A stretch of DNA of 33,913 bases from Candidatus Poribacteria bacterium. GTDB taxonomy: Bacteria > Poribacteria > WGA-4E > WGA-3G. Location: positions 1 to 33,913 of the forward strand of contig JAGWBV010000020.1 of NCBI GenBank assembly GCA_021295715.1. Reading direction: 5' to 3'. Of this stretch, positions 1,451 through 27,491 are shown piece by piece. The notes beneath the pieces are model-generated. The model saw nothing but the letters and a program-made list of their open reading frames with translations, was not told where the DNA came from and made no database searches. The translations under genes and the position numbers were made by a program. The stretch's first letter is position 1, and each line of letters starts with the position of its first letter.

Positions 1451-1469
1451 GCTTGCGCCCAGGAATAAT

Positions 1470-1572
1470 GGCGATCAGTAATCAGCAATCAGCGAAAGAC
1501 GCAAGCGTAACCGAGCGATTTTTGTTACCATACACCTCTTTACTGATTGCTGAAAACCGACTGCTGATAACT
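1470..1572. repeat. Imperfect palindromic spacer element (CAGTCAGC/ATCAGC family)
   Basis: The left arm is an array of ATCAGC-like words (GATCAGTAATCAGCAATCAGC-type) and the right arm carries the complementary GCTGATTGCTG and CTGCTGATAAC words, so the roughly 100-base spacer can fold on itself. Similar elements occur at about 4022-4233, 22052-22146 and 28874-28978. It stops just before the ribosome binding site of the next gene. Confidence 0.6.
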
Positions 1573-1588
1573 AATACAGGAGATTTTG

Positions 1589-2773: not shown

Positions 2774-2787
2774 GAAGGAAAATTACC

Positions 2788-4020
2788 ATGACTGAAAAGG
2801 GAAAAAACAGATTGAGGAAATTATTGGCTTACACATGTTTGCTGCTTTTTGGTGTCACCACACTTGCTTTCGGACAAGGATTACCGATGGCAGTGCCAGA
2901 AGCAGTCGGTGTTTCTGCCGAACGCCTTGAACGTATCCGTCCTGTCATGCAGGGGTATGTCGATGAAGGACACCTGCCCGGATTTCTAACGGTTGTAGCA
3001 CGGCGCGGGAAGATTGTCCATTTTGAAACCATGGGCATGCGAGATGTTGAGGATAACAAACCGGTTGAGCCGGACACGATATTCCGCATTTATTCGATGT
3101 CGAAACCGATTACCAGCGTTGCTGTGATGATGCTCTATGAGGAGGGGCATTTTCAACTCGGCACACCCGTTTCTAAATTTATCCCTGAATTTAAAAACAT
3201 GGAGGTCTACAACGAGGACCAAACTGAAATTTTGGAGACGGAGAAGGAGATGACGATCAAGCACCTCCTCATGCACACCGCAGGACTCACCTACGGGTGG
3301 GGCAATAAACCCGTTGATGAACGCTATAAGGCATCGAAAATTTTTGAACCCAACACAACGCTCGTTGATATGGTGAAAAAACTGAGTGACATTCCGCTCG
3401 TTCACGAACCGGGTGAAAGGTGGACCTATGGGGTCTCCGTTGATGTGCTCGGCTACCTTGTGGAAGTTGTGTCCGGAATGCCGTTTGAAGAATTCCTCCA
3501 AACCCGTCTCTTTGGTCCGCTCGGTATGGTAGACACCGGGTTTTCAGTGCCACCAGAGAAGGTTGACAGATACGCAGCACTGTACCGGCATAACAGGGAA
3601 GAGGGACAGAAACAACGTGTTGAAGATGCACCCCTCGCAAACGATGAGGTCAGTTTTTTCCCATCGGGTGGTGGGGGACTCGTCTCGACCGCTGCGGATT
3701 ACATGCGGTTTTCTCAAATGTTGCTCAACGGCGGTGAACTCGACGGGGTCCGCATGTTAGGGAAGAAAACCGTGGAACTGATGCGGTATCCGCATCACGA
3801 TGATTGGTTTGGACTCGGCTTTGCTGTTGTTACAGATAAGGAACCCCCAAACACTCTGGAATCGGTAGGGAATTTCAGTTGGGGCGGTGCCGCGGCTACC
3901 ACTTTCTGGATTGACCCTGAAGAGGAATTGATCGGCTTGCTTATGACGCAGCTTCTCAATAACCCGCACCCTTTCCAACAGCAATTTAAAGTGCTGACCT
4001 ATCAGGCACTCACTGAATAA
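2788..4020 (+). CDS. Exported serine hydrolase (beta-lactamase / CubicO family), paralog A2
   Basis: This 410-residue protein has a basic n-region (MTEKGKNRLRK), a hydrophobic core and an AFG-Q cleavage region, so it is probably periplasmic. The catalytic SxxK is SMSK in RIYSMSKPITS, the second motif is WTYGVSVDVLGYL, and FFPSGGGGL and SWGGAAA follow. It is the closest relative of the gene at 125 but lacks that gene's charged insertion. ATG at 2788 is preferred over a TTG at 2770 that would overlap the previous gene, because GAAGGA lies at a normal distance upstream. The pair B1-A2 is tightly spaced. Family assignment is secure; physiological substrate is unknown. Confidence 0.88.
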   Translation: MTEKGKNRLRKLLAYTCLLLFGVTTLAFGQGLPMAVPEAVGVSAERLERIRPVMQGYVDEGHLPGFLTVVARRGKIVHFETMGMRDVEDNKPVEPDTIFRIYSMSKPITSVAVMMLYEEGHFQLGTPVSKFIPEFKNMEVYNEDQTEILETEKEMTIKHLLMHTAGLTYGWGNKPVDERYKASKIFEPNTTLVDMVKKLSDIPLVHEPGERWTYGVSVDVLGYLVEVVSGMPFEEFLQTRLFGPLGMVDTGFSVPPEKVDRYAALYRHNREEGQKQRVEDAPLANDEVSFFPSGGGGLVSTAADYMRFSQMLLNGGELDGVRMLGKKTVELMRYPHHDDWFGLGFAVVTDKEPPNTLESVGNFSWGGAAATTFWIDPEEELIGLLMTQLLNNPHPFQQQFKVLTYQALTE

Positions 4021-4246
4021 TGGTTGTCAGTTATCGGTTATCAGTTCTCAGTTAAGAGGGTGAACTTAAACGAGCGGAAATCCGCAGAAATACCCCGCTG
4101 ACTCTCACTGCGAGGCAACACGCACATTCAGCGTTGATTCGCAAATACCTCTATCAAAAACACCTCTTACCTGACTGCTGAAAGGTTTTTTCGCAGAAAA
4201 AACTGACCTGATCGCTGACTGCTAACAGCGAATATAGGAGCTTTTA
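4021..4246. repeat. Spacer with palindromic CAGTCAGC/ATCGGT-family element
   Basis: The left arm (about 4024-4053) contains TCAGTTATCGGTTATCAG and the right arm (about 4170-4232) contains CTGACTGCTGAAAGG and GCTGACTGCTAACAGC. The centre is GC-richer with no open frame that looks real. It separates paralogs A2 and B2 just as the element at 1470-1572 separates A1 and B1, which suggests the spacer was duplicated with the genes. AGGAG at about 4236 serves the next gene. Confidence 0.5.
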
Positions 4247-5425
4247 ATGACATTATATGAAGGATTACCGCGCGCAGTGCCTGAAGATGTCGGTATGTCA
4301 ACATCGCGGTTAGCGCGTATTAGCCCGGTCATGCAAGGCTGGGTTGACGATGGTAAAATCCCCGGTGCGCTAACGATGATCGCACGTGAAGGCAGACTCG
4401 TCCATTTTGAAAAATTCGGTATGCAGGATGTTGCTACTGAGAAACCGTTAGAATTTGATACCATTTTTCGTATCTATTCGATGACGAAGCCGATTACCAG
4501 TATCGCAGTGATGATGCTTTACGAGCAAGGACACTTCCAACTCGGCACCCCCGTCTCTGAATTGATTCCTGCTTTCAAAGATATGCAGGTCTACACTGAG
4601 GGCGGCGAGGCTATTGTTGACGCTGAACGCGAGATGACGGTAAAGCATTTGTTGACGCACACCTCTGGAATTATCTACGGTGGGGATTGGGAGCACCCGA
4701 TTAATGAGCGGTATAGAGAAGCGAATTTCTACGGGGGCGACCTTGCGAACATGGCGCAAGAACTCGGAAATATTCCGCTCCTTCACCATCCGGGTGATGG
4801 GTGGAACTACGGTATGTCTACCGATGTACTCGGATACCTCGTCGAGGTCGTCTCTGGAATGCCGTTTGAGGAGTTTCTGAAAACCCAGATTTTTGAGCCT
4901 TTGGGGATGACGGACACTGCTTTCTCGGTGCCGGACGAAAAGGCGGATCGGTACCCGACGTTATATGAACCCGCCGAGGACGGTGGTATTCAGGTGATTG
5001 AGAACGCTCCTGTTTCCAGTGGACCGCGCAGTTTTTTCCATTCTGGGGGTGCTGGACTGCAGTCAACCGCTGCAGATTACCTCCGTTTCTGTCAAATGCT
5101 ACTCAACGATGGCGAACTTGATGGGGTTCGACTGCTTGGAAGGAAAACCGTCGAACTCATCAGAATGAATCATATCTCTGACGATTGGCATCCGCTTGAG
5201 AGAACGGGATGCGGTTTCGGACTTGGATTTGCTGTTGTCACGGATGTCGCTGAGACGCACGCTCCCGGTTCTGAAGGCACGTATAGTTGGGGCGGACTCG
5301 CAAGTACGACATTTTGGATTGATCCCGTGGAAGATTTGATCGGTATCTTGATGACGCAATTGATCGGCGATTCACCGTTCCATGCCCAGTTCCGCGTGCT
5401 AACCTATCAGGCAATTACCGATTAG
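4247..5425 (+). CDS. Cytoplasmic serine hydrolase (beta-lactamase / CubicO family), paralog B2
   Basis: This 392-residue paralog has no signal peptide (MTLYEGLPRAVPEDVG). It carries SMTK as the SxxK motif, NYGMSTDVLGYLVEVV as the second-motif region, and HSGGAGL and SWGGLAS near the C-terminus. AGGAGC precedes ATG at 4247. It is the B-type partner of A2 and closely resembles the gene at 1589, including the QVYTEGGEAIVDAER-type segment. The four genes are best explained by duplication of an exported/cytoplasmic gene pair followed by divergence. Nothing in the sequence fixes the substrate. Confidence 0.88.
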   Translation: MTLYEGLPRAVPEDVGMSTSRLARISPVMQGWVDDGKIPGALTMIAREGRLVHFEKFGMQDVATEKPLEFDTIFRIYSMTKPITSIAVMMLYEQGHFQLGTPVSELIPAFKDMQVYTEGGEAIVDAEREMTVKHLLTHTSGIIYGGDWEHPINERYREANFYGGDLANMAQELGNIPLLHHPGDGWNYGMSTDVLGYLVEVVSGMPFEEFLKTQIFEPLGMTDTAFSVPDEKADRYPTLYEPAEDGGIQVIENAPVSSGPRSFFHSGGAGLQSTAADYLRFCQMLLNDGELDGVRLLGRKTVELIRMNHISDDWHPLERTGCGFGLGFAVVTDVAETHAPGSEGTYSWGGLASTTFWIDPVEDLIGILMTQLIGDSPFHAQFRVLTYQAITD

Positions 5426-15700: not shown

Positions 15701-16939
15701 TATCCGAATCTCTATGTGATGCAGTGGGATGGCACGGCGATGGTACCCCTCTGGCATCGAAAGATGGAGGAAACCCCTGCTCTTCTTACCGCGGAACTCA
15801 ATCAAAACGGGTTCGACGAGTTTTACGTTAACCTTGAAGATGGTATTTACCGCCTTGAATCCATCTTCGCAACCGACCCGAATGCCATTGGTACGCTTAA
15901 ACCGTGGAATGTTGAAGCGAGACCACTGACACAGAAAGCGGTTCACGTTACATGGGATGCCGAGGAGAACGACGAAACAGATACCGAACAGTCAAATCAG
16001 ACGCGCTACTTTACTGTCTATCGTGCACAAGGGGAAAAGAAAGAATCACCCGCCTCTGACGCTTATGGAAAGGTGGCAGAAAACCTCGCCGTCACAAGGT
16101 TTCTCGATAGACGTGTTACGAAGGACAATACTTACTGGTACGCTATTACGACGAAGGATGAAAACGGGGACGAAACGGAACGCACTGAGCCTGTTTCTGC
16201 GACACCGCGGGAGCCACCGCAGCTGATTGGGGCGACCTATCACCGTCCAGGGAGTGATGGACATCCGACACAACCTGCATCTCAAATTCAGACACCTCAT
16301 GCGGATTCTGCGCAAGCCTCTAAAGGAAACTTACGGGACAATGGAAATTTCTGGGTCCTCGTTACATTTGACCGGCGAATGGATCCCGGGATTGGGAACG
16401 AGAACCGATATGTCTTACGAGCCGCGGAGCGGATTGGTGGTGTGAGTCCGGTATCCGCGATCCGAGACCGGATGGGTAGACGCGCGCTCTTGGCGTTTGA
16501 TACAGAGAGTCTGCTTGAGCACTTCGGTCAGTCACTTACGGATACAACCGACCAGTATGAGATTACCGTCTCCAATGTGGTCGATATTGATGAGAATCCT
16601 ATCCGTGCTTCTACACAACCTCTTGAAATACCGCTCGATGTTATCGGAGCCGCAGTGTCTGATTTGACACAGGTGCGGGTTTATCCAAATCCGGTGCGTC
16701 CCAACGTCGCTGACAAAGGGGTAATCACTTTCGACAGGTTGCCTGTCGGCACCCGCATCCAACTCTTTACCGTGAGGGGTGAGTTGCTTGAAACGTTGGA
16801 TGTGACCGCTCAGGATCACAACCGCAAGGAGTGGTGGCTTACGAGCAATAACACCGCAGACGTATCAACTGGTATCTATATCTATGTCCTTGAGTTTGAT
16901 ACCGAAAAAAGAATCGGTAAAATCGCGGTGATTAAATGA
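12767..16939 (+). CDS. Secreted subtilisin-like (S8) serine protease with FG-GAP-like repeats and a type IX-like C-terminal sorting domain
   Basis: This 1390-residue exoprotease has a signal peptide (residues 1-19, cleavage after ASWA), an N-terminal propeptide of roughly 110 residues, and an S8 catalytic domain with Asp172 (AIIDSG), His239 (GHGTHVAG) and Ser396 (GTSMASPHVAG). After an all-beta region come at least six FG-GAP/VCBS-like calcium-binding units at about residues 675-990, each with DxDxDG (DRDGQLEIVG, DGDGLLEV, DGDGQKEIIG, DADGSVELV, TGDGIPEFVVGG, EGDGRNRLII). A fibronectin type III-like domain follows (HVTWDAEEN to YWYAITTKD). The end (VRVYPNPVRP, PVGTRIQLFTVRGELL, STGIYIYVLE, IGKIAVIK) matches the type A sorting domain used by type IX secretion. 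Bases 12806-12836, coding for the cleavage region, are a GTAGG-type palindrome. It overlaps the next gene by ATGA. Confidence 0.92.
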   Translation: MKYLSILFIGILLVGASWARDTETSPENLPFAAIASEITPGELLIRLTPDAASDVERLQANAPISVLHVQHKVESLHPLFPYLARPALNPNLKRIYLLRFSPNAPLEDLKSVYEQSPLVETVEYNYLRPTLVDTVVPNDPMYPEQWNLPLMKLPQAWAIEKGDRNVVIAIIDSGIDYRHDDLAPKAWINPGEVPENGLDDDGNGYVDDVYGWDFTDAPNLQAEGDYLEGDNEPIDEKGHGTHVAGIAGAMPDNGIGVAGVAWECPLMAIRAGLSLGGSSRMQDDDSAAAIVYAVDNGASVINMSWGSERRSFVIQDAIDYAYARGAVLVAAAGNSQKPAAIFPAGYRKVIAVASTEQNQQRFYQSNFGASIDIGAPGNVILSTQINNQYRLLTGTSMASPHVAGVAALILAKRPALTHEEVRHILISTADPVYQEDSDELDERFAGAGTVNAERALLASGALQARILAPETNSGGADTITIVGTAGGYKFRSWQLSYGESTVPTQFTPFTQSSGAQKIGETLTIWDTTTVPEGIYTVRLIATATDGRQIHDQVVLSVDRTPPQIISLTATDTLYGERPLTIFTWATDDVTQNTLYYRRKGSLAPFAPVETTDLGVEQFLFLGLERGTYQFFVEAENTTNLKTREDNGGAFYTTDTVASYISPSGFAEKFLDIPPLHIASVTADFDRDGQLEIVGSPLSSETLNAELQAAILAVYERLPSGRYELAHTLESVEGLSNLEKFVTWAVDDTDGDGLLEVLATDDARTFLMESLIPRGYPQQIIWETPFLSGGTIADLDGDGQKEIIGADNNNDRLLVFEYDPATNTYLEQAVLINESAGSNVFAQNFAINDFDADGSVELVAADSEGDLFVYESTSIRNTFRLEWQTQLPLEDITQIAAGDLTGDGIPEFVVGGLLSLPDNPSGPLIWKFFVFTHTLNGYAVLSDGTRDATVAIAPHRRNGNSLTIADLEGDGRNRLIIAAYPNLYVMQWDGTAMVPLWHRKMEETPALLTAELNQNGFDEFYVNLEDGIYRLESIFATDPNAIGTLKPWNVEARPLTQKAVHVTWDAEENDETDTEQSNQTRYFTVYRAQGEKKESPASDAYGKVAENLAVTRFLDRRVTKDNTYWYAITTKDENGDETERTEPVSATPREPPQLIGATYHRPGSDGHPTQPASQIQTPHADSAQASKGNLRDNGNFWVLVTFDRRMDPGIGNENRYVLRAAERIGGVSPVSAIRDRMGRRALLAFDTESLLEHFGQSLTDTTDQYEITVSNVVDIDENPIRASTQPLEIPLDVIGAAVSDLTQVRVYPNPVRPNVADKGVITFDRLPVGTRIQLFTVRGELLETLDVTAQDHNRKEWWLTSNNTADVSTGIYIYVLEFDTEKRIGKIAVIK
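12806..12836. repeat. GTAGG-type palindrome coding for the signal-peptide cleavage region
   Basis: GTAGGA is followed by GCGAGC TGG GCTCGC, a perfect 6-bp palindrome at 12812-12826. In frame it encodes V14 to R20 or so (VGASWAR), which is exactly the predicted signal peptidase I site of the subtilase. Confidence 0.6.
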
Positions 16940-17934
16940 ATAATTTTATTCTCATCGCAAACCCCATTTCTGGTAAGGGACACGCGGAAAGCATTGCTGA
17001 ACAGGCGTATGCTGCGCTTACCGAAGCCGGAGCTCACGGACAGTTGGTGTTCACTTCGGCATCCGGCGATGCCAAGCGTTTCACGCAGGAAGCCGTCTCT
17101 GATGGAATTCGATCCGTGATTGCGTGCGGTGGCGATGGGACGCTCCACGAGGTTGTCAACGGTATCGCGACGGTTCCAGATGTGACCTTAGGTCTGCTCC
17201 CGTGTGGTCGTGGCAACGATTTCGCAGCGGCGATCGGTGTGCCGCTGAAACCGGAAGCCGCAATTGCAACCCTCTTATCTGGCACGCCTATCCACGTGGA
17301 TTTAGGATGTTGCTATAATAGCAGTCAGCAGTTAGTTGTTAATCCAAATGATGTAGCCCGTAATGAAATGGAGGGCGGATCTACGGAAAGGTGCTTCACT
17401 GTCCAAACCTCACTGACCGAACCGCAAGGAAAAATTAAAAACTATTTTACCACCATTGCGACCTGCGGTTACGATACGGAAGTGAGCCGCCGTGCGGCGA
17501 AAGGAACGCCGCTGTTTGCAGGCACTGCCTCCTACGCTTACGCCGCAGTGGAGACACTTTTCTATTACGAACCGCCGTTTGTGCGTCTTGAAGGCGATTT
17601 CGGTGTCCACGAGGGACCCCTGCTCCTTGCTGCGACAGGCATCACAAGTCGATATGGGGGCGGATTTCAGATTGTGCCGAACGCTCGCATCGACGATGGA
17701 CTTTTCGATGTCTGTATTATCCGTCCAGTGTCCGCTCTAACGGTGTTACGGCTACTGGTAACGCTTTTCTGGGGTGGACATGTTTCGCATCCCGCCGTAT
17801 CCATACACCAAACCCGCACTTTAACAATCGAGACCGACACCCCCATGCTGCTGTATGCCGATGGCGAGCCAATGTGCGAAACCCCCGCCACAATTGAGAT
17901 TATCAAAGACGGACTCACTGTCCTGGCACCCTGA
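16936..17934 (+). CDS. Diacylglycerol/lipid kinase (YegS/DgkB-like)
   Basis: This 332-residue cytoplasmic lipid kinase has the DAGK catalytic domain motifs: IANPISGKG at the N-terminus, ACGGDGTLHEVVNG for nucleotide binding, LPCGRGNDFA, and DDGLFDV in the C-terminal half. YADGEPM near the end is also typical. It phosphorylates a membrane lipid such as diacylglycerol using ATP. Residues about 126-169 (starting at NSSQQLVVNPNDVARNEM) interrupt the usual continuity between VDLGCCY and NYFTTIATCGYD and are encoded by repeat DNA, including a structured element at 17353-17441. The frame stays open, so the protein carries a repeat-encoded insertion of about 43 residues. ATG at 16936 overlaps the upstream stop as ATGA. 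The insertion lies on the beta-sandwich side and may or may not disturb activity. Confidence 0.88.
   Translation: MNNFILIANPISGKGHAESIAEQAYAALTEAGAHGQLVFTSASGDAKRFTQEAVSDGIRSVIACGGDGTLHEVVNGIATVPDVTLGLLPCGRGNDFAAAIGVPLKPEAAIATLLSGTPIHVDLGCCYNSSQQLVVNPNDVARNEMEGGSTERCFTVQTSLTEPQGKIKNYFTTIATCGYDTEVSRRAAKGTPLFAGTASYAYAAVETLFYYEPPFVRLEGDFGVHEGPLLLAATGITSRYGGGFQIVPNARIDDGLFDVCIIRPVSALTVLRLLVTLFWGGHVSHPAVSIHQTRTLTIETDTPMLLYADGEPMCETPATIEIIKDGLTVLAP
17353..17441 (+). repeat. Structured GTAGCC/GNRA element A, in frame inside the lipid kinase gene
   Basis: It begins GTAGCCCGTAATGAAAT and ends ACCGCAAGGAAAAATTAAAA. GCCC (17356-17359) pairs with GGGC (17373-17376), and CCGCAAGG gives a GCAA tetraloop. 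Compared with copies B and C it lacks the central A/T-rich hairpin, so it is an internally deleted form. It is translated in frame as part of the kinase. Confidence 0.7.
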
Positions 17935-18036: not shown

Positions 18037-18166
18037 GTAGCCCGTAATGAAATTAGGTTTCCTTAAATGGCATAATTTGTCTTTGCTTTACATTTGGAGG
18101 GCGGCTCGAACACGGAAACCGCTAAATCCACAGATGCCATAACTTATCCGCAAGGAAAAATTAAAA
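18037..18166 (+). repeat. Structured GTAGCC/GNRA element B, overlapping the 3' end of the acyl-CoA ligase gene
   Basis: GTAGCCCGTAATGAAATTA opens the element; GCCC (18040-18043) pairs with GGGC (18099-18102). The central part shares TTAAATGGCATAATTTGTC and TTTGCTTTACATTTGG with copy C. The end is TCCGCAAGGA followed by AAAATTAAAA, a GCAA-capped hairpin. Its last six bases, read on the other strand, give the TAA stop codon and final Phe codon region of the ligase. Confidence 0.7.
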
Positions 18167-19939
18167 GTCCTCTGGATACATCTCCTCAATCGTATCGCCG
18201 TATCGTTCCATAATAACGTTCCGCTTCAACTTTAGCGTGGGTGTCATCTCATCTGCTTCTTGAGAAAATTCTTTATCGAGTAGCGTAAACCGTCGTACCT
18301 GTTCAAAGTCCGAGAAATCGGTTAAACGGCTCCGGATTTCGCCTTGAATCAGTTGTTGCACCTCACGCGTTTCAAGCATCGTCGCGAGGTCATCCGTCGC
18401 AACGTTATTCTCTGCCGCCCACGCCTTGAGTGCATCAAAATTGGGAACGATCAGTGCCGCGAGATTCTTGCGTTCGTTGCCGACTAACAGAATCTGGTTA
18501 ATGAAGGGGCTTTGCACCAACTCGCTTTCTATCGGTTGCGGTGCGACATTCTTGCCGTTGGAGAGCACAATGATGTTCTTCTTCCGATCGGTAATCTTAA
18601 CGAACCCATCCTCATCAATGATACCGATGTCGCCTGTGTGAAACCAACCCTCTCCATCAATAACCTCTGCTGTCGCTGATTCGTTGTTAAAATAGCCCTT
18701 CATGACGTGTGGACCGCGAGTTAAAATCTCACCATCTTCAGCGATGCGCACCTCTACACCCTGGACAGGCACACCAACGGTTCCGAACCTCCATTGTGCT
18801 GGGTGGTTCATACTGATGACAGGTGAGGTCTCTGTTAAGCCGTACCCTTCCAAGATCAGTATCCCCGCCGCGTGGAAAAATTCAGCGATCGATTGTGGTA
18901 ACGCTGCGCCACCTGAGACGAAAAAGCGTAAACGCCCCCCCGTTGCTGCCTTCAATTTCGCGAAGACCAGTTTGTCGGCGATATTCTGTTGTAATTGCAA
19001 AATCGCAGACGGCTTTTTCCCCTTTTGAATCGCTGAACTGACGGATGAACCGACTGAGACTCCCCAATGAAAAATCTTCTGTTTCAGCGATGAGCCTTCT
19101 TGCACGGCGCGCAGAATTCTGTCATGCATGGTTTCATAGAGTCTCGGCACACTGAGCATCACTGTCGGAGCCACCTCCCGCATATTCTGTGCGACCGTGA
19201 ACGTGCTCTCCGCATAAGCCACCTTCGCACCGGAGAACAACGGCACGTAGTGCCCGCCGAGCCGTTCAAATACATGCGATAAGGGTAGGAACGACAACAA
19301 CACGTCTGTATCACTGACATCAATCAGCGATTTACACGCCTGTAAATTTGAAATGAAATTCGCATGTGTCAGCATAACCCCCTTCGGATCTCCTGTTGTC
19401 CCTGACGTATAGATAATCGTTGCGATGTCGTCTTCGCTCGCGTAGGAGGGGTTTCTAACCCCGATTCCTTGTCCGTCCAGTTCACAGACCGCCTCAAATT
19501 GGATAACACCCTCTGGGAGTTCACCTTCAATCGGGTCAAAGACAATTATCTGTTCCAGTGTCGGCACTTCGTCTCGGATAGCGGTTACCTTTTCCAACTG
19601 CCTACTCGTGGAGACACAGATAATTTTTGATCCGGAATCTTTTAGAATGTAACCCACCTGTGCCGCAGTCAGCGTTGAGAACATCGGTACGGTTACCGCA
19701 CCGGCTTTGAGGCTACCAAAATCCGTGATTGCCCATTCAGGACGGTTCTCGGAGAGGAGTGCAACCCGGTCGTTCTTTTGCACCCCTAAGGCGGTTAACC
19801 CTTTACGAAACGCGTCCACCGATTCACCGAATTCAGTGTAAGAGATGTCTTGATAGGTGCCACCTTTCGGTTTATGTGCCAATGCCGGTTTACTACCATA
19901 ATGCTGGATTGAATGTTCTAACAAAGATATGAGTGTCAT
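18161..19939 (-). CDS. Long-chain acyl-CoA synthetase / AMP-dependent ligase
   Basis: This 592-residue adenylate-forming enzyme activates fatty acids with ATP and CoA. The P-loop-like YTSGTTGDPKG is at residues 177-187, FLPLSHVFER follows, GYGLTETSP is the A5 motif, and GWFHTGDIG with TDRKKNIIVLSNGKNVAP is the FACS signature region. The length and SSAIQKGKKPS region fit the FadD15/FAA1-like long-chain group. The start (CAT at 19937-19939) has GGAGAAG 7 bases upstream on the minus strand. Residues 160-167 (GVRNPSYA) are encoded by a GTAGG-type palindrome, and the stop comes from structured element B, so both ends of the insertion history are visible. It is divergent from the proteasome cluster. 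Confidence 0.93.
   Translation of the reverse strand: MTLISLLEHSIQHYGSKPALAHKPKGGTYQDISYTEFGESVDAFRKGLTALGVQKNDRVALLSENRPEWAITDFGSLKAGAVTVPMFSTLTAAQVGYILKDSGSKIICVSTSRQLEKVTAIRDEVPTLEQIIVFDPIEGELPEGVIQFEAVCELDGQGIGVRNPSYASEDDIATIIYTSGTTGDPKGVMLTHANFISNLQACKSLIDVSDTDVLLSFLPLSHVFERLGGHYVPLFSGAKVAYAESTFTVAQNMREVAPTVMLSVPRLYETMHDRILRAVQEGSSLKQKIFHWGVSVGSSVSSAIQKGKKPSAILQLQQNIADKLVFAKLKAATGGRLRFFVSGGAALPQSIAEFFHAAGILILEGYGLTETSPVISMNHPAQWRFGTVGVPVQGVEVRIAEDGEILTRGPHVMKGYFNNESATAEVIDGEGWFHTGDIGIIDEDGFVKITDRKKNIIVLSNGKNVAPQPIESELVQSPFINQILLVGNERKNLAALIVPNFDALKAWAAENNVATDDLATMLETREVQQLIQGEIRSRLTDFSDFEQVRRFTLLDKEFSQEADEMTPTLKLKRNVIMERYGDTIEEMYPEDF
19442..19466. repeat. GTAGG-type palindrome inside the acyl-CoA ligase gene
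   Basis: GTAGGA is followed by GGGGTTTCTAACCCC, a perfect 6-bp palindrome around TCT. On the minus strand it codes in frame for GVRNPSY, just before the conserved EDDIATIIYTSG. Confidence 0.65.
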
Positions 19940-20225: not shown

Positions 20226-22046
20226 ATGTACGATAAGAAGAATCGTAAAACTGCCGGTCCAGGTCCCGATAGGAACGACCTGTTTATTGAAGATGACGAG
20301 GAAATTGAAGAGGAACTCACCCCCGAAGAGGAGGCAATGGGTTCTGGCTATTCGTTGCAGTTAATTCACCACATTATTGCCGAGACCCCTGTAGATGACC
20401 GCCGCCGTCGCTGGCTCATGGAACTCCGTCGCTCTATTCTCAACGATGAAGGTGAATTTCAGGAGAGGGTCCGCGCGATTCAGCAGGAGGCACTCCGTAT
20501 CCACGCCGAAATGGAGGAGCAAATTGAGAAACTCACCGCACCCGCGAATCGGATCGGAACCTTGCTCGGATTGCCCAAAGAGGACATTGCCCGCGTTATC
20601 GTCGGCGGCTCCGAGTACTATGCGAACATTGATACGGAACTGAAGGCATCTAACCTCAAAAAAGGGTTCAGCGTCCTGTTAAACGACGCTTTTGTCGTTG
20701 TCGGTGAACTCGGATACAACGATGCGGGTCCTATTGCAAAGATAGCCGATGTCATGCCCGATGGTCGGCTCCGTATCGGTCAAGAACCGAATGCTCAAAC
20801 TGTCATTCTTGAACGTTCCGCAGACCTCGTGGATGAGAAACTCAAGCCCGGTGATGAAGTGCGGATTGACTCCAACTTCCGTGTTGCCCTTGAACATATC
20901 GCAGCCAAAGAGACAGACGCTTACGCACTTGAAGCAGTGCCGAATATACCGTGGTCAAAGGTCGGTGGGCTTGACGATACTATCCAACGCATTAAGGACA
21001 CGATTGAACTTCCAATCTTGCACCCTGAACTTTTTGAACGATTCCAGTATAGCGCACCGAAAGGTTTCCTGCTCCACGGTCCGCCAGGATGTGGAAAAAC
21101 ACTCATTGGAAAAGCGACCGCTTACAACTTAACACAACGTCTCCGAAGGGAAAGCGGCGAGGATGTTGAAGGCTGTTTCCTACATATCAAGGGACCTGAG
21201 ATTCTCAACATGTGGCTCGGTGAATCTGAGCGGAAGGTGCGAGAGATTTTTCAGATTGCCCGTGAGAAAAAAGAGGACGGCAAACTGGCGTTTGTCTTTA
21301 TTGATGAAGCGGAGTCAATATTGGGTACACGGCGGGCACTCAGATCCCACAGTATCTCGAATACACTGGTCCCGATGTTTTGTGCAGAGATGGACGGTAT
21401 TGAATCTCTGCAGGATGTCGTCATTATCTTGGCGACGAACCGTCCTGACCTGATTGACCCTGCCATTTTGCGTCCAGGACGCATTGATAGAAAAATTAAA
21501 GTAACACGTCCAGATGCAAAGGCTGCAAAGGATATCTTCCGCATTTACCTCACCCCTGAACTCCCCATCGCTTCACTCCTTGATGGAGAAAACGAGACCG
21601 AAACAGGAGAAGGTGAAACACCGCCCGAAGTTATCCCAGCTGAGAAAGCCGTGGCAGACCTGATCGCACAGGTCATTGATGAGATGTTCCGTGAAGACGA
21701 AAACAACCGATTCCTTGAGGTGTCTCTCAGGAGTGGCAGACGCGATATCCTCTATAAGGGACATCTGTGCAGCGGGGCAATTATTGAGTCGATTGTGCAG
21801 CGGGCGAAGGAGTCCGCACTCAAACGTGCGATTCAGAACCCAGACAAGGAAAGTGGTATTACACGCACTGATCTGTTAGACGCACTCGCCGCAGAGTATA
21901 GCGAAAGCGAAATCTTCCCACCGACTGAGGCGACTGAAGATTGGCTCAAACTTCTTGATTACGATCCCGCGAACGTTGTCAAAGTTACGCCTATGAAGGC
22001 TGAGAAACAGGAACGACGCAAAGCATCCGGATCACGCGTCATTTAG
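20226..22046 (+). CDS. arc: Proteasome-activating AAA ATPase (ARC/Mpa family)
   Basis: This 606-residue hexameric unfoldase feeds tagged substrates into the 20S core. An acidic N-terminus (about 18-37) leads into a helical, coiled-coil-like region (about 60-115, with EFQERVRAIQQEALRIHAEM), where Mpa binds Pup. Next come OB-like domains (about 116-230) and one AAA domain with Walker A GPPGCGKT (285-292), Walker B FVFIDE (356-361), ATNRPDLIDPAILRPGRID, and a C-terminal helical part. Single AAA domain plus coiled coil plus OB domains distinguishes ARC/Mpa from Cdc48. The C-terminus is SGSRVI and lacks the GQYL-type end with penultimate Tyr that docks Mpa to the core in actinobacteria. It is the first gene of the cluster, 108 bases ahead of dop. 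Confidence 0.93.
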   Translation: MYDKKNRKTAGPGPDRNDLFIEDDEEIEEELTPEEEAMGSGYSLQLIHHIIAETPVDDRRRRWLMELRRSILNDEGEFQERVRAIQQEALRIHAEMEEQIEKLTAPANRIGTLLGLPKEDIARVIVGGSEYYANIDTELKASNLKKGFSVLLNDAFVVVGELGYNDAGPIAKIADVMPDGRLRIGQEPNAQTVILERSADLVDEKLKPGDEVRIDSNFRVALEHIAAKETDAYALEAVPNIPWSKVGGLDDTIQRIKDTIELPILHPELFERFQYSAPKGFLLHGPPGCGKTLIGKATAYNLTQRLRRESGEDVEGCFLHIKGPEILNMWLGESERKVREIFQIAREKKEDGKLAFVFIDEAESILGTRRALRSHSISNTLVPMFCAEMDGIESLQDVVIILATNRPDLIDPAILRPGRIDRKIKVTRPDAKAAKDIFRIYLTPELPIASLLDGENETETGEGETPPEVIPAEKAVADLIAQVIDEMFREDENNRFLEVSLRSGRRDILYKGHLCSGAIIESIVQRAKESALKRAIQNPDKESGITRTDLLDALAAEYSESEIFPPTEATEDWLKLLDYDPANVVKVTPMKAEKQERRKASGSRVI

Positions 22047-22051
22047 GAATG

Positions 22052-22146
22052 GCTATCGGCTATCGGTTATCGGCAGTCAGCAAAGAGATGACTTTTTTCG
22101 ACACGCTTACCTCTTTGCTGACGGCTGACCGCTGACGGCTGACCGC
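22052..22146. repeat. Palindromic CAGTCAGC/ATCGGC-family element between arc and dop
   Basis: The left arm is GGCTATCGGCTATCGG, then CAGTCAGCAAAGAG; the right arm is CCTCTTTGCTGACGGCTGAC with further GCTGACGGCTGACCGC words. CAGCAAAGAG and CTCTTTGCTG are exact complements. It occupies nearly the whole arc-dop gap, so it would form a hairpin in a cotranscript. Confidence 0.65.
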
Positions 22147-22154
22147 TTTAAAAT

Positions 22155-23681
22155 ATGGAAAGACTTTTTGGAATCGAAACTGAATACGGAATAACGCTCG
22201 AAAATGAAGCGCATATTGATGCCGTCAAGCAGTCTATTGAGCTAATAAAAAGTTACCGACAAGAAGATTTTCGACCCGTGTGGGATTACCGCGGTGAGGA
22301 TCCGTTTCGAGATGAACGCGGCTTTCGGGCGAGCGCACTTTCCAATCATCCCGATGAGAAGGAAGAAGAACAGCGCGACCGAAAACGCAATATTAAAGAA
22401 CGGCTCTCTTTTGCTGAAATCAAAAGTGATCATATTCTCACCAACGGGGCGCGACTCTACAACGACCACGCACATCCGGAGTACTCAACGCCTGAATGTA
22501 GGAGTCTCTTTGACCTCGTCGCACACGATAAAGCCGGCGAGCGCATCCTTCAACGGTGTGCCGAAACACGCACTGAGAAACTCGGAAAACGGGTGCTTTT
22601 ATACAAAAATAATACCGATTTCCATGGGCATAGTTACGGGTGCCACGATAACTACCTCATGGCACGCGAAGTGCCTTTTGAAACGCTCAAGCAAGGTATC
22701 ATGCCGTTCTTTATCACGCGCCAGATCTTCGCCGGGGCAGGAAAACTCGGCATTGAAACAGAAGCTGGACTCGCGACACCAGGGCACTATCAGTTATCTC
22801 AACGATCCGATTTCTTTCACGTGGAAGCGAGTGTCGATACGATGCATAATCGTCCTATCGTCAATACGCGAGATGAACCGCACGCCGATGCATCTAAATA
22901 TCGTAGGCTGCACGGCATCGCGGGAGATGCGAATATGTCCGAATACGCAACGGCACTCAAGGTCGGCACGACAGCACTCGTGATTGCCTTGATTGAACAG
23001 CGGATGGTGCCGGAGAGGTTAGCACTCGTCAACCCGATTGATACCATCAAAACTGTATCGCATGACCAAACGTATCGTTGGATAGTAATGACGGCAGAAG
23101 GGAAATCAATGTCCGCTATCGACCATCAACGTGAGTATCTTGCCCTCGCGCAGAAACATCTCAGTAAGGGCGAGGGTGCCTCGTTCCTACCGGAAACGGA
23201 CTGGGTGCTCACTGAGTGGGAGGATACCCTCAACGCGCTTGAGGCGGATCCAATGTCGCTCACCGATCGACTTGATTGGGTCGCGAAGAAATGGCTGCTG
23301 GAAACGTTTGCTGAGGAAGAGGAAGTCGCTTGGGATGACCCATGGCTCCAAAGTTTGGATTTAGAATATCACAATATCGCTCTCGATGAAGGGTTATACT
23401 ATGGGATTCCGATGCGGCGCCTCGTCACAGACGAGCAAATTAATGCCGCACTCCATAATCCGCCTGCCGACACACGGGCATACTTCCGCGGACGCGCTGT
23501 AGATCGATTCAGCAGTGCCATAAAAGCGATCCAGTGGGATAGTATTACCTTCACTGTAAAGGGACGCACCCAAGAAATCAATCTGAATGCCCTCGCCGAT
23601 GCGGCGATCGCACGTCAATATAACGAGGCACTCGATCAATCGCCAAACGTTGAGACGCTCATTGAAAAGTTGCATCTATAA
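22155..23681 (+). CDS. dop: Deamidase/depupylase of the Pup/UBact system (Dop)
   Basis: This 508-residue enzyme of the glutamine-synthetase-like PafA/Dop family begins MERLFGIETEYG, with the metal/ATP-binding Glu8. It has the long N-terminal insertion that marks Dop (about residues 38-94, with DPFRDERGF) before ILTNGARLYNDHAHPEYS (catalytic-type Asp104). VNTRDEPHAD, RRLHGIAGDANMSEYATALK and the C-terminal DLEYHNI are further family blocks. In actinobacteria Dop deamidates Pup-Gln and removes Pup from substrates; here the modifier already ends in Glu, so removal and recycling would be its role. No strong ribosome binding site is seen before ATG 22155. It lies 16 bases before ubact. Confidence 0.93.
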   Translation: MERLFGIETEYGITLENEAHIDAVKQSIELIKSYRQEDFRPVWDYRGEDPFRDERGFRASALSNHPDEKEEEQRDRKRNIKERLSFAEIKSDHILTNGARLYNDHAHPEYSTPECRSLFDLVAHDKAGERILQRCAETRTEKLGKRVLLYKNNTDFHGHSYGCHDNYLMAREVPFETLKQGIMPFFITRQIFAGAGKLGIETEAGLATPGHYQLSQRSDFFHVEASVDTMHNRPIVNTRDEPHADASKYRRLHGIAGDANMSEYATALKVGTTALVIALIEQRMVPERLALVNPIDTIKTVSHDQTYRWIVMTAEGKSMSAIDHQREYLALAQKHLSKGEGASFLPETDWVLTEWEDTLNALEADPMSLTDRLDWVAKKWLLETFAEEEEVAWDDPWLQSLDLEYHNIALDEGLYYGIPMRRLVTDEQINAALHNPPADTRAYFRGRAVDRFSSAIKAIQWDSITFTVKGRTQEINLNALADAAIARQYNEALDQSPNVETLIEKLHL

Positions 23682-23697
23682 AAAAAGGAGACATAAA

Positions 23698-23895
23698 ATG
23701 ACAGCCAAGATGATTGCTCAACTTGAACGTAAGCAAAGAGACACCAAACCCATCGGACCCGGTGACGGCGATGGCGATAACGAGGGACCCAAAAGACAGA
23801 AAGTCAGCCGGCCCGATACACAAGAACTGCTCAAGCGGATGCGCCGTGTGGACAAAGATCAGTCCAGACGGTACCGCCAAAGAACGGGAGAGTGA
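23698..23895 (+). CDS. ubact: UBact, ubiquitin-like protein modifier (Pup-like)
   Basis: This 65-residue, mostly polar protein is the modifier. Its C-terminal half (PDTQELLKRMRRVDKDQ, then SRRYRQRTGE) has the basic RYRQR-[T/S]-G-E ending that I recall for UBact proteins of Nitrospirae and candidate phyla, not the acidic, GGQ-ending Pup of actinobacteria. A Gly/Asp-rich linker lies at about residues 20-30. The last two residues are Gly-Glu, so the side-chain carboxylate of Glu65 can be used by PafA without deamidation. ATG 23698 has AAGGAG at 23685-23690, 7 bases away; the longer upstream frame overlaps dop. Its stop overlaps the prcB start as TGATG. Position between dop and prcB is the standard location of the modifier gene. 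Confidence 0.9.
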   Translation: MTAKMIAQLERKQRDTKPIGPGDGDGDNEGPKRQKVSRPDTQELLKRMRRVDKDQSRRYRQRTGE

Positions 23896-24740
23896 TGAAT
23901 CAAGAACCAAAGAACCTCACGCCTTCAGGTGTGGGAGTTGTCAGCCATAAAGGGGACTTCCTAAGCCTTTTAAAACACGCAAACTATCCCTTGAAAATAG
24001 ATTTGCCATCCGAAACAACACAGCACGGGGCTGACCTTGAAATAGCACATAGTACGACAGTTGTCGCTGTTCGTTACCGGGATGGTGTTATGATCGCAGG
24101 GGATCGGCGTGCTACCGCTGGGACTTCTGTTATCTATGATCGAGCAGAGAAGGTTTTGCAGATTGATAAGCATTCTGTGCTCGCGATTTCAGGTTCACCC
24201 GCAATCGCTTATGAGATCGCCAGAATATTGGAGCACTCGTTTCAATACTTTCGCCGCAGCCAACTCCAGGAATTGAGTCTTGAGGGTAAGCTCCGAATGC
24301 TATCGCGACTCATCCGGGAGAATCTACCGATGGCACTTCAAGGCATCGGAGGCGTTATCCCAATCTTTGCACTCTACGATTTGAATGCCGCTGATGATGA
24401 GAATGGTGGTAAAATTTTCTTCTATGATGCACTCGGTGCACACTTTGAAAATGTCAATTTTGCTACGACCGGTTCCGGTTCTATCTGGATCCGCGGTGTC
24501 TTGCGTTATCTCTCTCGGTTTGGTGATACACCCTTGCAGGAGATGGATGAGCGGCAGGCGATCATCACGATCTTACGTCTCTTGGACACAGCAAGCGAGT
24601 ACGATGCCGCAACGAGCGGTTACAACGCAAGGGCACAAATATTTCCAAATATCAAGACAGTGACGCGCACCGGCGTTGAAGATGTTTCCGATGATGAATT
24701 GGAAACCTGTTACGCTGAAGCACAATCAGAGCAAGTGTAA
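23895..24740 (+). CDS. prcB: 20S proteasome beta subunit (PrcB), catalytic
   Basis: This is the N-terminal-nucleophile protease subunit, 281 residues as a precursor. A propeptide of 53 residues precedes Thr1 (Thr54 of the precursor; codon at 24054) in AHS-TTVVAVRY. Counting from Thr1, Asp17 is in AGDRR and Lys33 in AEKVLQI, completing the catalytic Thr/Asp/Lys set; GSGS and SEYDAATSG are the later structural motifs. The residue before Thr1 is Ser, where Gly is usual. The start is ATG 23895, overlapping the ubact stop by one base (TGATG); a GTG at 23892 would add one residue. Coupling to ubact suggests coordinated translation. The partner alpha subunit follows after a 402-base repeat-filled gap, which is longer than the near-zero prcB-prcA spacing usual in actinobacteria. 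Confidence 0.94.
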   Translation: MNQEPKNLTPSGVGVVSHKGDFLSLLKHANYPLKIDLPSETTQHGADLEIAHSTTVVAVRYRDGVMIAGDRRATAGTSVIYDRAEKVLQIDKHSVLAISGSPAIAYEIARILEHSFQYFRRSQLQELSLEGKLRMLSRLIRENLPMALQGIGGVIPIFALYDLNAADDENGGKIFFYDALGAHFENVNFATTGSGSIWIRGVLRYLSRFGDTPLQEMDERQAIITILRLLDTASEYDAATSGYNARAQIFPNIKTVTRTGVEDVSDDELETCYAEAQSEQV

Positions 24741-24779
24741 CTTGAAACCCTACTGCTTGTGAAAACTTTGGTGCCGTCG

Positions 24780-24852
24780 CACCCCGTAGGAGTGCTATGT
24801 CTATAGAAAATGGTATATTCAGGTCCACCCCACCCCGTAGGAGTGCTATGTC
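24780..24852. repeat. Two 22-bp direct repeats, 51-bp period
   Basis: Units at 24780-24801 and 24831-24852 are identical: CACCCCGTAGG followed by AGTGCTATGTC. They contain the GTAGG motif of the other palindromic repeats but no obvious palindrome of their own. They lie between prcB and structured element C. Confidence 0.75.
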
Positions 24853-24880
24853 AAACAGGTGGCTTCTTCATCCAAAGCGC

Positions 24881-25027
24881 GTAGCTCGTAATGAAATTAT
24901 GCCTTAAATGGCATAATTTGTCTTTGCTTTACATTTGGAGAGCGGATTTCAGAACGGGATGTCAAAGTTCAAACCCGCCATGTTTAACCGCAAGGTAAAA
25001 TTAAAAAACCGTAAGGAAAATTAAAAA
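24881..25027 (+). repeat. Structured GTAGCC/GNRA element C between prcB and prcA
   Basis: GCTC (24884-24887) pairs with GAGC (24940-24943), a compensated change relative to GCCC/GGGC in copies A and B. Inside is a perfect 10-bp hairpin AAATTATGCC TTAAAT GGCATAATTT (24894-24919). AACGGG and CCCGCC form a second stem. The terminal unit is present twice: ACCGCAAGGTAAAATTAAAA and ACCGTAAGGAAAATTAAAAA, with GCAA and GTAA loops. Confidence 0.7.
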
Positions 25028-25054
25028 GTTTTCAGTTAAACATAAATCTAAACC

Positions 25055-25141
25055 GTAGCCTGCAACATCGGCGCAGGCGGATATGAGGGACGCACGCCAA
25101 AGTTCAAACGCACGCTGTTCCTCCGCAAGGAATAATTAAAA
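25055..25141 (+). promoter_or_regulatory. Structured element D forming the immediate leader of prcA
   Basis: GCCTGC (25058-25063) pairs with GCAGGC (25073-25078), and GAGGGACG (25085-25092) can pair with TGTTCCTC (25116-25123). The end TCCGCAAGGAATAATTAAAA carries a GCAA loop and supplies the Shine-Dalgarno-like AAGGA. It stops one base before the prcA ATG. TTCC can alternatively pair with GGAA of the ribosome binding site. Confidence 0.55.
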
Positions 25142-25142
25142 G

Positions 25143-25913
25143 ATGCGAGATGAACCGTATCGCTGGATAGAAGCGATCCAGGACCGACGAGATTACATTG
25201 AAGACCAGCTCCGTGTCGGAAGTCCTGTTGTAGGACTTACCTATGACGAGGGGATGGTCCTACTCACTATTGGTAGAGGACAACGCAAAATTTTTGAGGT
25301 GCATGACCGGATCGCACTCTCCGCAATCGGACACCCTGCCGATATTGAGCGCCTCCGGATGCTTGTTACCGACACCGCCAGCGTCCAAGGTTTTCAAAAT
25401 GCCACCGAAGACGTGAACCTACACCGACTCACGAACTTTGTTTTAGCACATACTTTCAAACAGGCGTTTGAGTCCATTGTTGGTGAAGCGTATATCATTA
25501 AAATGTTGCTCGCTGAACTCGGCAGCACTGATGATAAAAACCGTTTTACCTGTATCAACTACGACGGCAATGTCCGAACAGACACAACCTCCACTGTTAT
25601 CGGCGGTACAGAAACAATCGAGACCGGAATGCAAAACTATCTCGCTACTGCTTCTACGGGTGCCGACAGAGATTTAACCGCTGCACTCCAGTTGGGTTTA
25701 GAAGCATGGGCAGTTGGTAAAGAATTGAGTTCGCGGGAACCGGAGGAAACTGAATCGGAGGAAACCCAGATGGATACTGCCCAGATGCATGAAATTATTA
25801 ATGCTGCACGGGAAGACGGTGAAATTGAAGCAGGAATTTTGGAAATAACCCAGCGCGGATCAAGTAAATTTCGTCTGCTGACTTCTCAAGAAATCGAAGC
25901 CATCCTCCCGTAA
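25143..25913 (+). CDS. prcA: 20S proteasome alpha subunit (PrcA)
   Basis: This 256-residue subunit forms the outer rings and gate of the core. An N-terminal helix region (RWIEAIQDRRDYIEDQL) precedes SPVVGLTYDEGMVLLTIG, the first strands of the proteasome fold, then RKIFEVHDRIALSAIGHPAD, equivalent to the K-I-x-E-L-Y-D-R block of actinobacterial PrcA. No Thr nucleophile follows the start, as expected for alpha. The C-terminal 55 residues begin with a Glu-rich linker (SREPEETESEETQ) and end in ILP. ATG 25143 sits one base after structured element D, whose AAGGA is the only ribosome-binding-like sequence. The assignment rests on pattern and on its place between prcB and pafA. Confidence 0.9.
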   Translation: MRDEPYRWIEAIQDRRDYIEDQLRVGSPVVGLTYDEGMVLLTIGRGQRKIFEVHDRIALSAIGHPADIERLRMLVTDTASVQGFQNATEDVNLHRLTNFVLAHTFKQAFESIVGEAYIIKMLLAELGSTDDKNRFTCINYDGNVRTDTTSTVIGGTETIETGMQNYLATASTGADRDLTAALQLGLEAWAVGKELSSREPEETESEETQMDTAQMHEIINAAREDGEIEAGILEITQRGSSKFRLLTSQEIEAILP

Positions 25914-25938
25914 TTTCTTTTCCTTTTTCTACCAACCT

Positions 25939-26048
25939 GTAGCCTGCAACAACGGCGCAGGCGGTTTTTAAGGAACATCCTTAGATAGTCTAAATGCTCG
26001 TTGTTCCTCCGAAAGGTAAAATTAAAAATCCGCAAGGTAAAATTAAAA
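25939..26048 (+). promoter_or_regulatory. Structured element E forming the immediate leader of pafA
   Basis: GCCTGC (25942-25947) pairs with GCAGGC (25957-25962). GGAACA (25972-25977) pairs with TGTTCC (26002-26007) around an inner TTAGA TAG TCTAA hairpin. The terminal unit is doubled: TCCGAAAGGTAAAATTAAAA and TCCGCAAGGTAAAATTAAAA, with GAAA and GCAA loops. The second copy runs directly into the pafA ATG and provides AAGG as ribosome binding site. Confidence 0.55.
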
Positions 26049-27491
26049 ATGAAGAAAAGAATTTTTGGGATCGAAACTGAATTTGGATGCATGACAGATG
26101 CTGAGCGAATTCGTGGCACCTCTGAAGGGGTTGCGGCGCGCGTCCGCGATTATGTCTTCGATGTGTTGGAACTTGGTCTTCGGGATATTCACTACCGAGA
26201 CTGGGGCGAACCGCCGGGCAACGGCGGTTTCCTATTCAATGGCGGGCGTCTCTACATCGATATGGGACATCTGGAGTACGCTACACCCGAATGTGGTACA
26301 CTCTTTGACCTTATCGCTTACGATAAAGCCATTGAACATGTCATCAACAATATCCTTACGGATACAGGGTTGCCCACGGCGTTCTTCAAAAATAATATTG
26401 ATCATTTTACGGGGGCGACCTTTGGATGCCACGAAAACTTCCAAATCAGTCGAGACGTTCCCTTTTACCGTATTGTCATCCCGACCCTGATGCCCTTCTT
26501 CGTTACACGCCAAATTTACGCAGGGGCAGGCAGAGTCGGAGCTTATGATGAGATGATTGAATTCGGCGATTTTCACGACGATCTTGCTGAGCAACAATAC
26601 TATCAAATCTCGCAACGCGCCGATCACATCGTCACTGAAATTTATGAATGGATCCAGTTCAGTCGCGCGATCATCAATACACGGGACGAACCCCTCAGCG
26701 ATTACACGAAATACCGTCGTCTCCATCTTCTCGTTGGGGATTCCAATATGTCAGAGTACGCAACCGCTCTGAAGGTAGGCACGACTGCACTTTTGCTCAC
26801 TGCTATTGAAACATTCCACGAGATGCATGGCGAAAAATTGCCGCTCCCGGGTTTTGAACTCGCCGATCCAGTCTACGCCATTCGACACATCTCGCGCGAT
26901 AATACCTTCACGTGGCGCGTTGAGTTGAAATCCGGAAAAACGATCTCTGCTATTGATTTACAAAGGGAATATCTTAACTTCGTTCAGGCTTTGGTTACCG
27001 AACGGGACGAAGAGACCGAATGGGTGCTTGCGGCGTGGGAGTCTATCCTTGACGAACTCGAAGATGATTGGCTAAATGTTATTGATCGCGTCGATTGGGC
27101 AGCAAAGAAATGGCTACTTGAAGCTTTCATTGATGAAGAGAAATTAGATTGGGAAGACCCTTGGATTAAAAGTCAAGATTTGGAGTATCATAATATCCGG
27201 ACTGAAACTGGACTCTACTACGCACTTCAGGAACAAGGACAGATGCAAAGAGTTGTCACTGATGAACATATTCGCTACGCCGTAGACAACGCGCCACAAG
27301 ATACCCGTGCCAAAGTTCGGTCGTTCCTGATGCGTGCCCTCACCCAAAACCGAATGCCTTGTATTGTTGACTGGCATCAAATATATGCAGGACATACAGA
27401 ATATTTTGAGATGAAGGAGCCGTTTGATACCAATATCGCGAAGGCGCAAAGATGGATGAAACGGCTGCGGAAGCGACCCCCACGAACCTGA
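26049..27491 (+). CDS. pafA: Pup/UBact-protein ligase (PafA)
   Basis: This 480-residue glutamine-synthetase-like ligase phosphorylates the C-terminal Glu of the modifier and joins it to substrate lysines. It begins MKKRIFGIETEFG with Glu9 and has GGRLYIDMGHLEYATPEC with catalytic Asp71, but no Dop-type insertion between them, which identifies it as PafA. VGDSNMSEYATALK, SAIDLQREYL and SQDLEYHNI are shared with the Dop at 22155. ATG 26049 is the start: the longer frame from 26001 would translate the repeat leader (KVKLKIRKVKLK) and lies before the conserved N-terminus. It ends the proteasome cluster; 64 bases separate it from the DUF1501 gene. Confidence 0.93.
   Translation: MKKRIFGIETEFGCMTDAERIRGTSEGVAARVRDYVFDVLELGLRDIHYRDWGEPPGNGGFLFNGGRLYIDMGHLEYATPECGTLFDLIAYDKAIEHVINNILTDTGLPTAFFKNNIDHFTGATFGCHENFQISRDVPFYRIVIPTLMPFFVTRQIYAGAGRVGAYDEMIEFGDFHDDLAEQQYYQISQRADHIVTEIYEWIQFSRAIINTRDEPLSDYTKYRRLHLLVGDSNMSEYATALKVGTTALLLTAIETFHEMHGEKLPLPGFELADPVYAIRHISRDNTFTWRVELKSGKTISAIDLQREYLNFVQALVTERDEETEWVLAAWESILDELEDDWLNVIDRVDWAAKKWLLEAFIDEEKLDWEDPWIKSQDLEYHNIRTETGLYYALQEQGQMQRVVTDEHIRYAVDNAPQDTRAKVRSFLMRALTQNRMPCIVDWHQIYAGHTEYFEMKEPFDTNIAKAQRWMKRLRKRPPRT

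Follow-up and report, generated by a model that had tools for sequence, protein, structure and literature searches.

Contig C20 (JAGWBV010000020.1) of the 5.14 Mb Candidatus Poribacteria draft genome, here called G000, carries five copies of a short element in which a compensated palindrome is combined with an A-rich tail. The question raised by this locus is whether such copies are conserved RNAs or pieces of mobile DNA, and what they do where they end at a start codon. The whole 33,913-nt stretch analysed is referred to as the window. Statistics for G000 based on open reading frames (ORFs) and on covariance-model hits cover 0.8 Mb of it, and pattern counts cover the whole genome.

Copies and architecture of the element

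The five copies named in the preliminary description were all found on the + strand, starting with GTAGC and ending in CCGNAAGG followed by a AATTAAAA tail, and when 32 short copies were used to build a covariance model, it recovered exactly these five in the window and no others. For the tail pattern, the window gave 7 occurrences where 0.12 would be expected, a count reached in no shuffle. The short-form copy at 17353–17440 lies in frame within a YegS/DAGK-type lipid kinase ORF (16936–17934), where it is translated as VARNEMEGGSTERCFTVQTSLTEPQGKIKN. The copy at 18037–18166 is a long form with an insert in the first-stem loop, and the TTA of its tail (18161–18163) is the stop codon of an acyl-CoA synthetase-like ORF on the minus strand (18161–19939). 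A further long form (24881–25006) is located in the gap that separates the genes for proteasome beta and alpha and is followed by a duplicated tail unit (CCGTAAGGAAAATTAAAAA, 25009–25027); the corresponding copy directly abuts the alpha ATG in the relatives L110 and L134. In the window, a short-form copy (25055–25141) is inserted between the tail of this older copy and the alpha ATG at 25143, and the preceding stretch at 25028–25054 (GTTTTCAGTTAAACATAAATCTAAACC) is probably the left leader of the younger unit, as judged from its absence at the L110 site and from left-flank conservation. The last short-form copy (25939–26027) precedes the second Pup-ligase (PafA/Dop-type) gene, and its duplicated tail unit (26030–26048) ends flush with the ATG at 26049. 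The terminal unit is thus duplicated in two copies, as had been described.

These docked genes belong to a Pup-proteasome cluster of Poribacteria (20226–27491) that comprises an AAA ATPase, two Pup-ligase-family genes (a PafA/Dop pair), and proteasome beta and alpha. A short ORF at about 23692–23895, ending in ...RQRTGE, looks like Pup with an unusual C-terminus. Near the start of the window, four paralogous serine beta-lactamase-like/esterase-like genes follow one another in a tandem array (125–5425).

Short forms are 84–89 nt long; their 3' half and tail are conserved, and the conserved right end reads ...CCGNAAGG(T/A)AAAATTAAAA. This right end is fixed, the left part is variable, and tail-only units occur. 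The left end is ill-defined; a conserved, T-rich left leader of roughly 10–27 nt is present, and it shows weak complementarity to the right tail as compared by eye. Among copies selected by the AG(C/T) part of the head, the head positions were G in 58%, T in 64%, A in 100% and G in 95%, and the GTAG head stands directly before the complementary palindrome, as in REPs. A nested module of about 19 nt (GTTTTTGCTTGGGTGTTTC) was seen in either orientation in first-stem loops of long forms (e.g., L062:4929–5037 and L072:18558–18667), and a different first-stem insert (TTAAATGGCATAATTTGTCTTTGCTTTACATTT) occurs in the copies at 18037 and 24881.

The first stem and the question of a conserved RNA

The first-stem variants GCCC/GGGC, GCTC/GAGC and GCCTGC/GCAGGC and the terminal loops GCAA, GAAA and GTAA are all present in the window copies, and the compensated change of the first stem proved to be real. 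In 32 sequences, 97.9% of the first-stem cells were paired, and the covariation exceeded that of all 500 shuffles and of all slid registers; none of 500 partner swaps within each of two subfamilies was as strong either, and the stem's own arms out-paired swapped arms in both subfamilies (z −6.1 and −7.0). Among the 216 pairs given by four positions in 54 non-redundant copies, 208 were Watson-Crick, 1 was G-U, 2 were A-C and 5 were other combinations. Given that G-U pairs are nearly absent, selection at the RNA level cannot be claimed over upkeep of a DNA palindrome, and DNA repeats such as REPs would equally be expected to have compensated palindromes free of G-U. The preliminary statement that this is the pattern of a conserved RNA and not of a DNA-only repeat was therefore unsupported.

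The GNRA-capped end is supported as sequence and not demonstrated as a helix, since the CC/GG around GNAA was invariant in 32 of 32 sequences. A second stem, considered as a conserved helix, was rejected: it held in type 2 as a consensus feature only, and partner swaps inside subfamilies cost nothing. Neither feature thus counts as evidence of covariation, and one helix is supported where a structured RNA was looked for as several covarying helices with G-U exchange. The element had not been recognised as a named family, in agreement with the absence of any Rfam 15 match at the gathering threshold; a search of 24750–26100 gave no Rfam 15 match up to E = 1.

Mobility and docking on start codons

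The exact tail occurs in 388 copies in G000, in both orientations, and the reversed control pattern in none. Tails were present in all 38 genomes of the genus, which consists of sponge-symbiont Poribacteria, at 1–388 copies each, and genomes of 54 other genera gave 0–2 matches each. The covariance-model search agreed, with at least 150 matches in three high-copy genomes, 0–23 in four low-copy genomes, and up to 6 weak or scattered matches outside the genus. Such a wide spread of copy number within one genus is typical of mobile DNA. Together with presence and absence in close relatives, it supports the mobility of the element, which the preliminary description had raised as one option.

The insertion in the lipid-kinase gene (the 17353 copy) is shared within a clade, with the same insertion in five relatives, and in seven others it is absent or replaced by other sequence. 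The arrangement in the proteasome beta–alpha gap differs in most species examined, with the end always at the same ATG; here the younger unit of the window separates an older tail from the ATG to which that tail is adjacent in L110. Empty and filled sites could be paired, with the empty G017 CTGGAAGGAGCACCTAAAATGG against the filled G000 ...CCGCAAGGTAAAATTAAAATATGG, and with the empty G000 GAGGGTCAAGTAATGAG against the filled G010 ...AAGGAAAATTTAAAAAATGAA. Empty sites have native Shine-Dalgarno leaders, as in the G017 example. Between G000 and G010, 18 docks were filled in both genomes, the bodies being at least 88% identical at 10 of them and at most 80% identical at 8, and 9 further G000 docks had no recognisable element in G010. 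Target-site duplication was in general not found, as own flanks shared k-mers no more than swapped flanks did; the exceptions (4 versus about 1) appeared at 2 of 48 settings, and one candidate AATGA pair flanks an element in G010.

The position of the copies was strongly biased. Genus-wide, 2,197 of 4,173 tails (53%) were followed by ATG within 0–2 nt, compared with 49 (1.2%) for the control triplet GTA. Of 83 model hits in the 0.8 Mb of G000, 47 ended where an ORF of at least 60 codons starts, 8 (about 10%) gave a convergent ORF its stop codon through TTA on the opposite strand, 7 were closely followed by a further copy and 1 lay within an ORF. The other 20, about a quarter, were unclassified and off gene boundaries by the criteria used, although some of these are evidently docked via irregular tails. 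For comparison, a start codon lies at −2 to 15 of 14.7% of random positions. Among 510 ORFs with at least 200 codons, 35 (about 7%) have a docked copy in front of them. The possibility that the tail is a host signal found generally before ATG was rejected, TTAAAA preceding only 3.4% of other ATG starts. The docking bias may come from target choice, from selection that keeps the start region intact, or from both. Selection for a ribosome-binding site alone can hardly account for docking on antisense stop codons, which suggests some target preference. A stronger version, in which a dedicated mechanism targets translation starts, placing the A-rich end exactly before ATG, and the element, spreading as a portable ribosome-binding site, rewrites the leader in about 7% of the longer genes per genome, is a tentative possibility that we would not favour at present. 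No bacterial repeat family docking so precisely on start codons was found in the literature searched, nor did searches of databases and papers return an earlier description of this element family or of its docking.

At their starts, ordinary G000 genes have AAGGAG at about −8 to −13. Docked copies have AAGG about 13–16 nt before ATG, so that the AAGG–ATG spacing is about 3 nt longer than the native one. Taking AAGG in docked copies for a Shine-Dalgarno core is simpler than assigning it to a GNRA hairpin. Computed with a general bacterial anti-Shine-Dalgarno sequence, rather than one read from G000, the median pairing energy was −5.3 kcal/mol for docked starts, −6.4 for native starts and −3.3 for an upstream control, and by the same calculation pairing at −4 kcal/mol or better was reached by 45 of 45 docked starts, 69% of native genes and 38% of the upstream control. 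The computed paired probability at positions −12 to −1 was 0.26 for docked and 0.53 for native starts. This predicted Shine-Dalgarno pairing, together with low structure before ATG, indicates that the element can replace a native initiation region. Promoter and terminator scans gave no excess over shuffles.

We consider it probable that the element is a non-autonomous, REP/MITE-like piece of mobile DNA of about 85–130 nt plus the left leader, which acts as a portable translation leader at start codons. It would move as DNA, its first-stem hairpin presumably being recognised by an enzyme supplied in trans, and would land, or survive, with its right end flush on a start codon. The conserved end would then become the translation-initiation region and displace the native Shine-Dalgarno site, with AAGG putatively used by ribosomes as the Shine-Dalgarno core and the A-rich stretch serving as an unstructured spacer. 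If copies do act as leaders, a selfish element has overwritten the initiation region in hundreds of genes of an uncultured sponge symbiont. This would amount to a natural experiment in the reshaping of translation by mobile DNA, and the choice between targeting and selection would be directly testable over the 38 genomes. More generally, covarying repeats located in leaders should not be taken as riboswitch candidates before their mobility has been checked.

Other repeats were seen at similar positions. A second family (GTTATCAGTTAAGAGG ... CTCTTAACTGATAACTGACAACTATTAAAA) ends flush with ATG upstream of dop in L117–L139 (e.g., L133, L131 and L128); it occurs in species without the first element at dop, and in its left arm it is similar to the left leader seen in some first-family copies. 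The two families may share a docking mechanism. On contig C22 of G000 (L272:110–980), a RAYT-like gene is flanked by a GTAG palindrome like GTAGCATAGGCTGTTAGCCTGTG, different from that of the element and probably the true REP of that RAYT, and L117, L120 and L123 have similar sequence upstream of dop. In the G010 counterpart of the minus-strand dock at 60331 of G000 contig C3, a tail belonging to the first element carries another inserted palindromic repeat (TAGGACTTACGCA ... TGCGTAAGTCCTA), apparently with duplication of TAATTAA.

Mobilisation and relation to known systems

G000 has a single RAYT (REP-associated tyrosine transposase), 34 TnpB matches and one Y1 transposase, the last lying close to a tnpB gene, and none of these is associated with the element. 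An association with TnpB/omega-RNA was rejected, as tails occurred at 6 of 31 tnpA/tnpB loci against about 7 expected from copy density. RAYT or other Y1 transposases were likewise rejected as the source of movement, with no flanking copies at the loci checked and a Spearman coefficient of −0.11 between Y1 count and copy number over 38 genomes. The corresponding coefficient for reverse transcriptases was 0.08, and these are absent from several high-copy genomes, so this candidate was dropped as well. The analysis thus identified no gene that mobilises the element.

How the element arose can be read in several ways. Imperfect ends TTTTCnTTAnACC / GGTnnAATTAAAA would fit a MITE derived by internal deletion from a DDE-type insertion sequence, as would the conserved, T-rich leader, its weak by-eye complementarity to the right tail, and the stacked and nested copies; a consistent target-site duplication was not found, the AATGA pair in G010 being the one candidate, an insertion sequence that carries such ends and could be the parent was not identified, and we regard this origin as rather doubtful. 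A true REP mobilised by a RAYT of the IS200/IS605 group would agree with the undetected target-site duplication, with a compensated GC-rich palindrome that begins right after the GTAG head, with the high copy number, and with the RAYT-like genes in the genus, one of which is in G000. Yet no tail flanks the RAYT-like loci checked, the G000 RAYT has a different GTAG palindrome at its flanks, and Y1 counts do not follow copy number. Moreover, the element is longer than the 20–40 bp given for REPs (PMC3733652), its 3' half and tail are conserved and non-palindromic, and it docks on start codons, so that we judge a true REP to be unlikely.

Readings in which RNA is central fare worse. A cis-regulatory RNA, that is, a riboswitch- or thermosensor-like leader that multiplied by duplication and governs access to AAGG and ATG through its fold, would account for the location in 5' leaders directly before ATG, for the strongly covarying first stem and for the conservation of CCGNAAGG and the A-rich end. 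Against this, there is a single covarying stem nearly without G-U, the second stem being unsupported inside subfamilies; copies are translated in frame, give stop codons in antisense or, between orthologous docks, differ entirely; the docked genes of the window encode a housekeeping proteasome and lack a common ligand theme; and no Rfam family matches. We consider such an RNA quite improbable. Retroposition, in which a resident reverse transcriptase copies an RNA whose 3' end is precise and A-rich, agrees with the fixed right end, the variable left part and the tail-only units. It is largely refuted by the lack of any RVT_1 domain match in the high-copy genomes G000 (388 copies), G010 (376, a single contig) and G024 (302), and we give it hardly any credence.

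The non-autonomous mobile element that we favour resembles several known systems. REPs are 20–40 bp long (PMC3733652), and the element is like the REP/RAYT system in its GTAG beside a compensated palindrome, its hundreds of copies, the undetected target-site duplication and the RAYT-like genes in the genus. It differs from REPs in its length of 85–130 nt, which goes beyond a palindrome alone, its conserved A-rich tail and its right end docked on start codons; its copies stack in the same direction rather than forming inverted pairs, and at the RAYT-like loci checked no RAYT gene was found between two inverted copies. A review of bacterial MITEs describes their locations as mainly intergenic and does not mention start codons or ribosomes (PMC10969869). 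With MITEs such as ERIC, Correia and Chunjie the element shares short size, non-autonomy, interspersed location, hairpin potential, lineage-specific expansion and modular inserts. The bcr1 repeat of Bacillus cereus is a short non-autonomous repeat with the same hairpin potential, lineage specificity and modularity. In contrast to MITEs, the element has no known parent insertion sequence, and no general target-site duplication was detected for it. Rickettsia palindromic elements (RPEs) are known mainly as inserts inside genes. A CGTC tag at one end has been reported for them (PMC3733652). The Poribacteria element is likewise a palindromic repeat that can be tolerated in frame within a protein gene, as the 17353 copy shows, but unlike RPEs it has most of its copies at gene starts.
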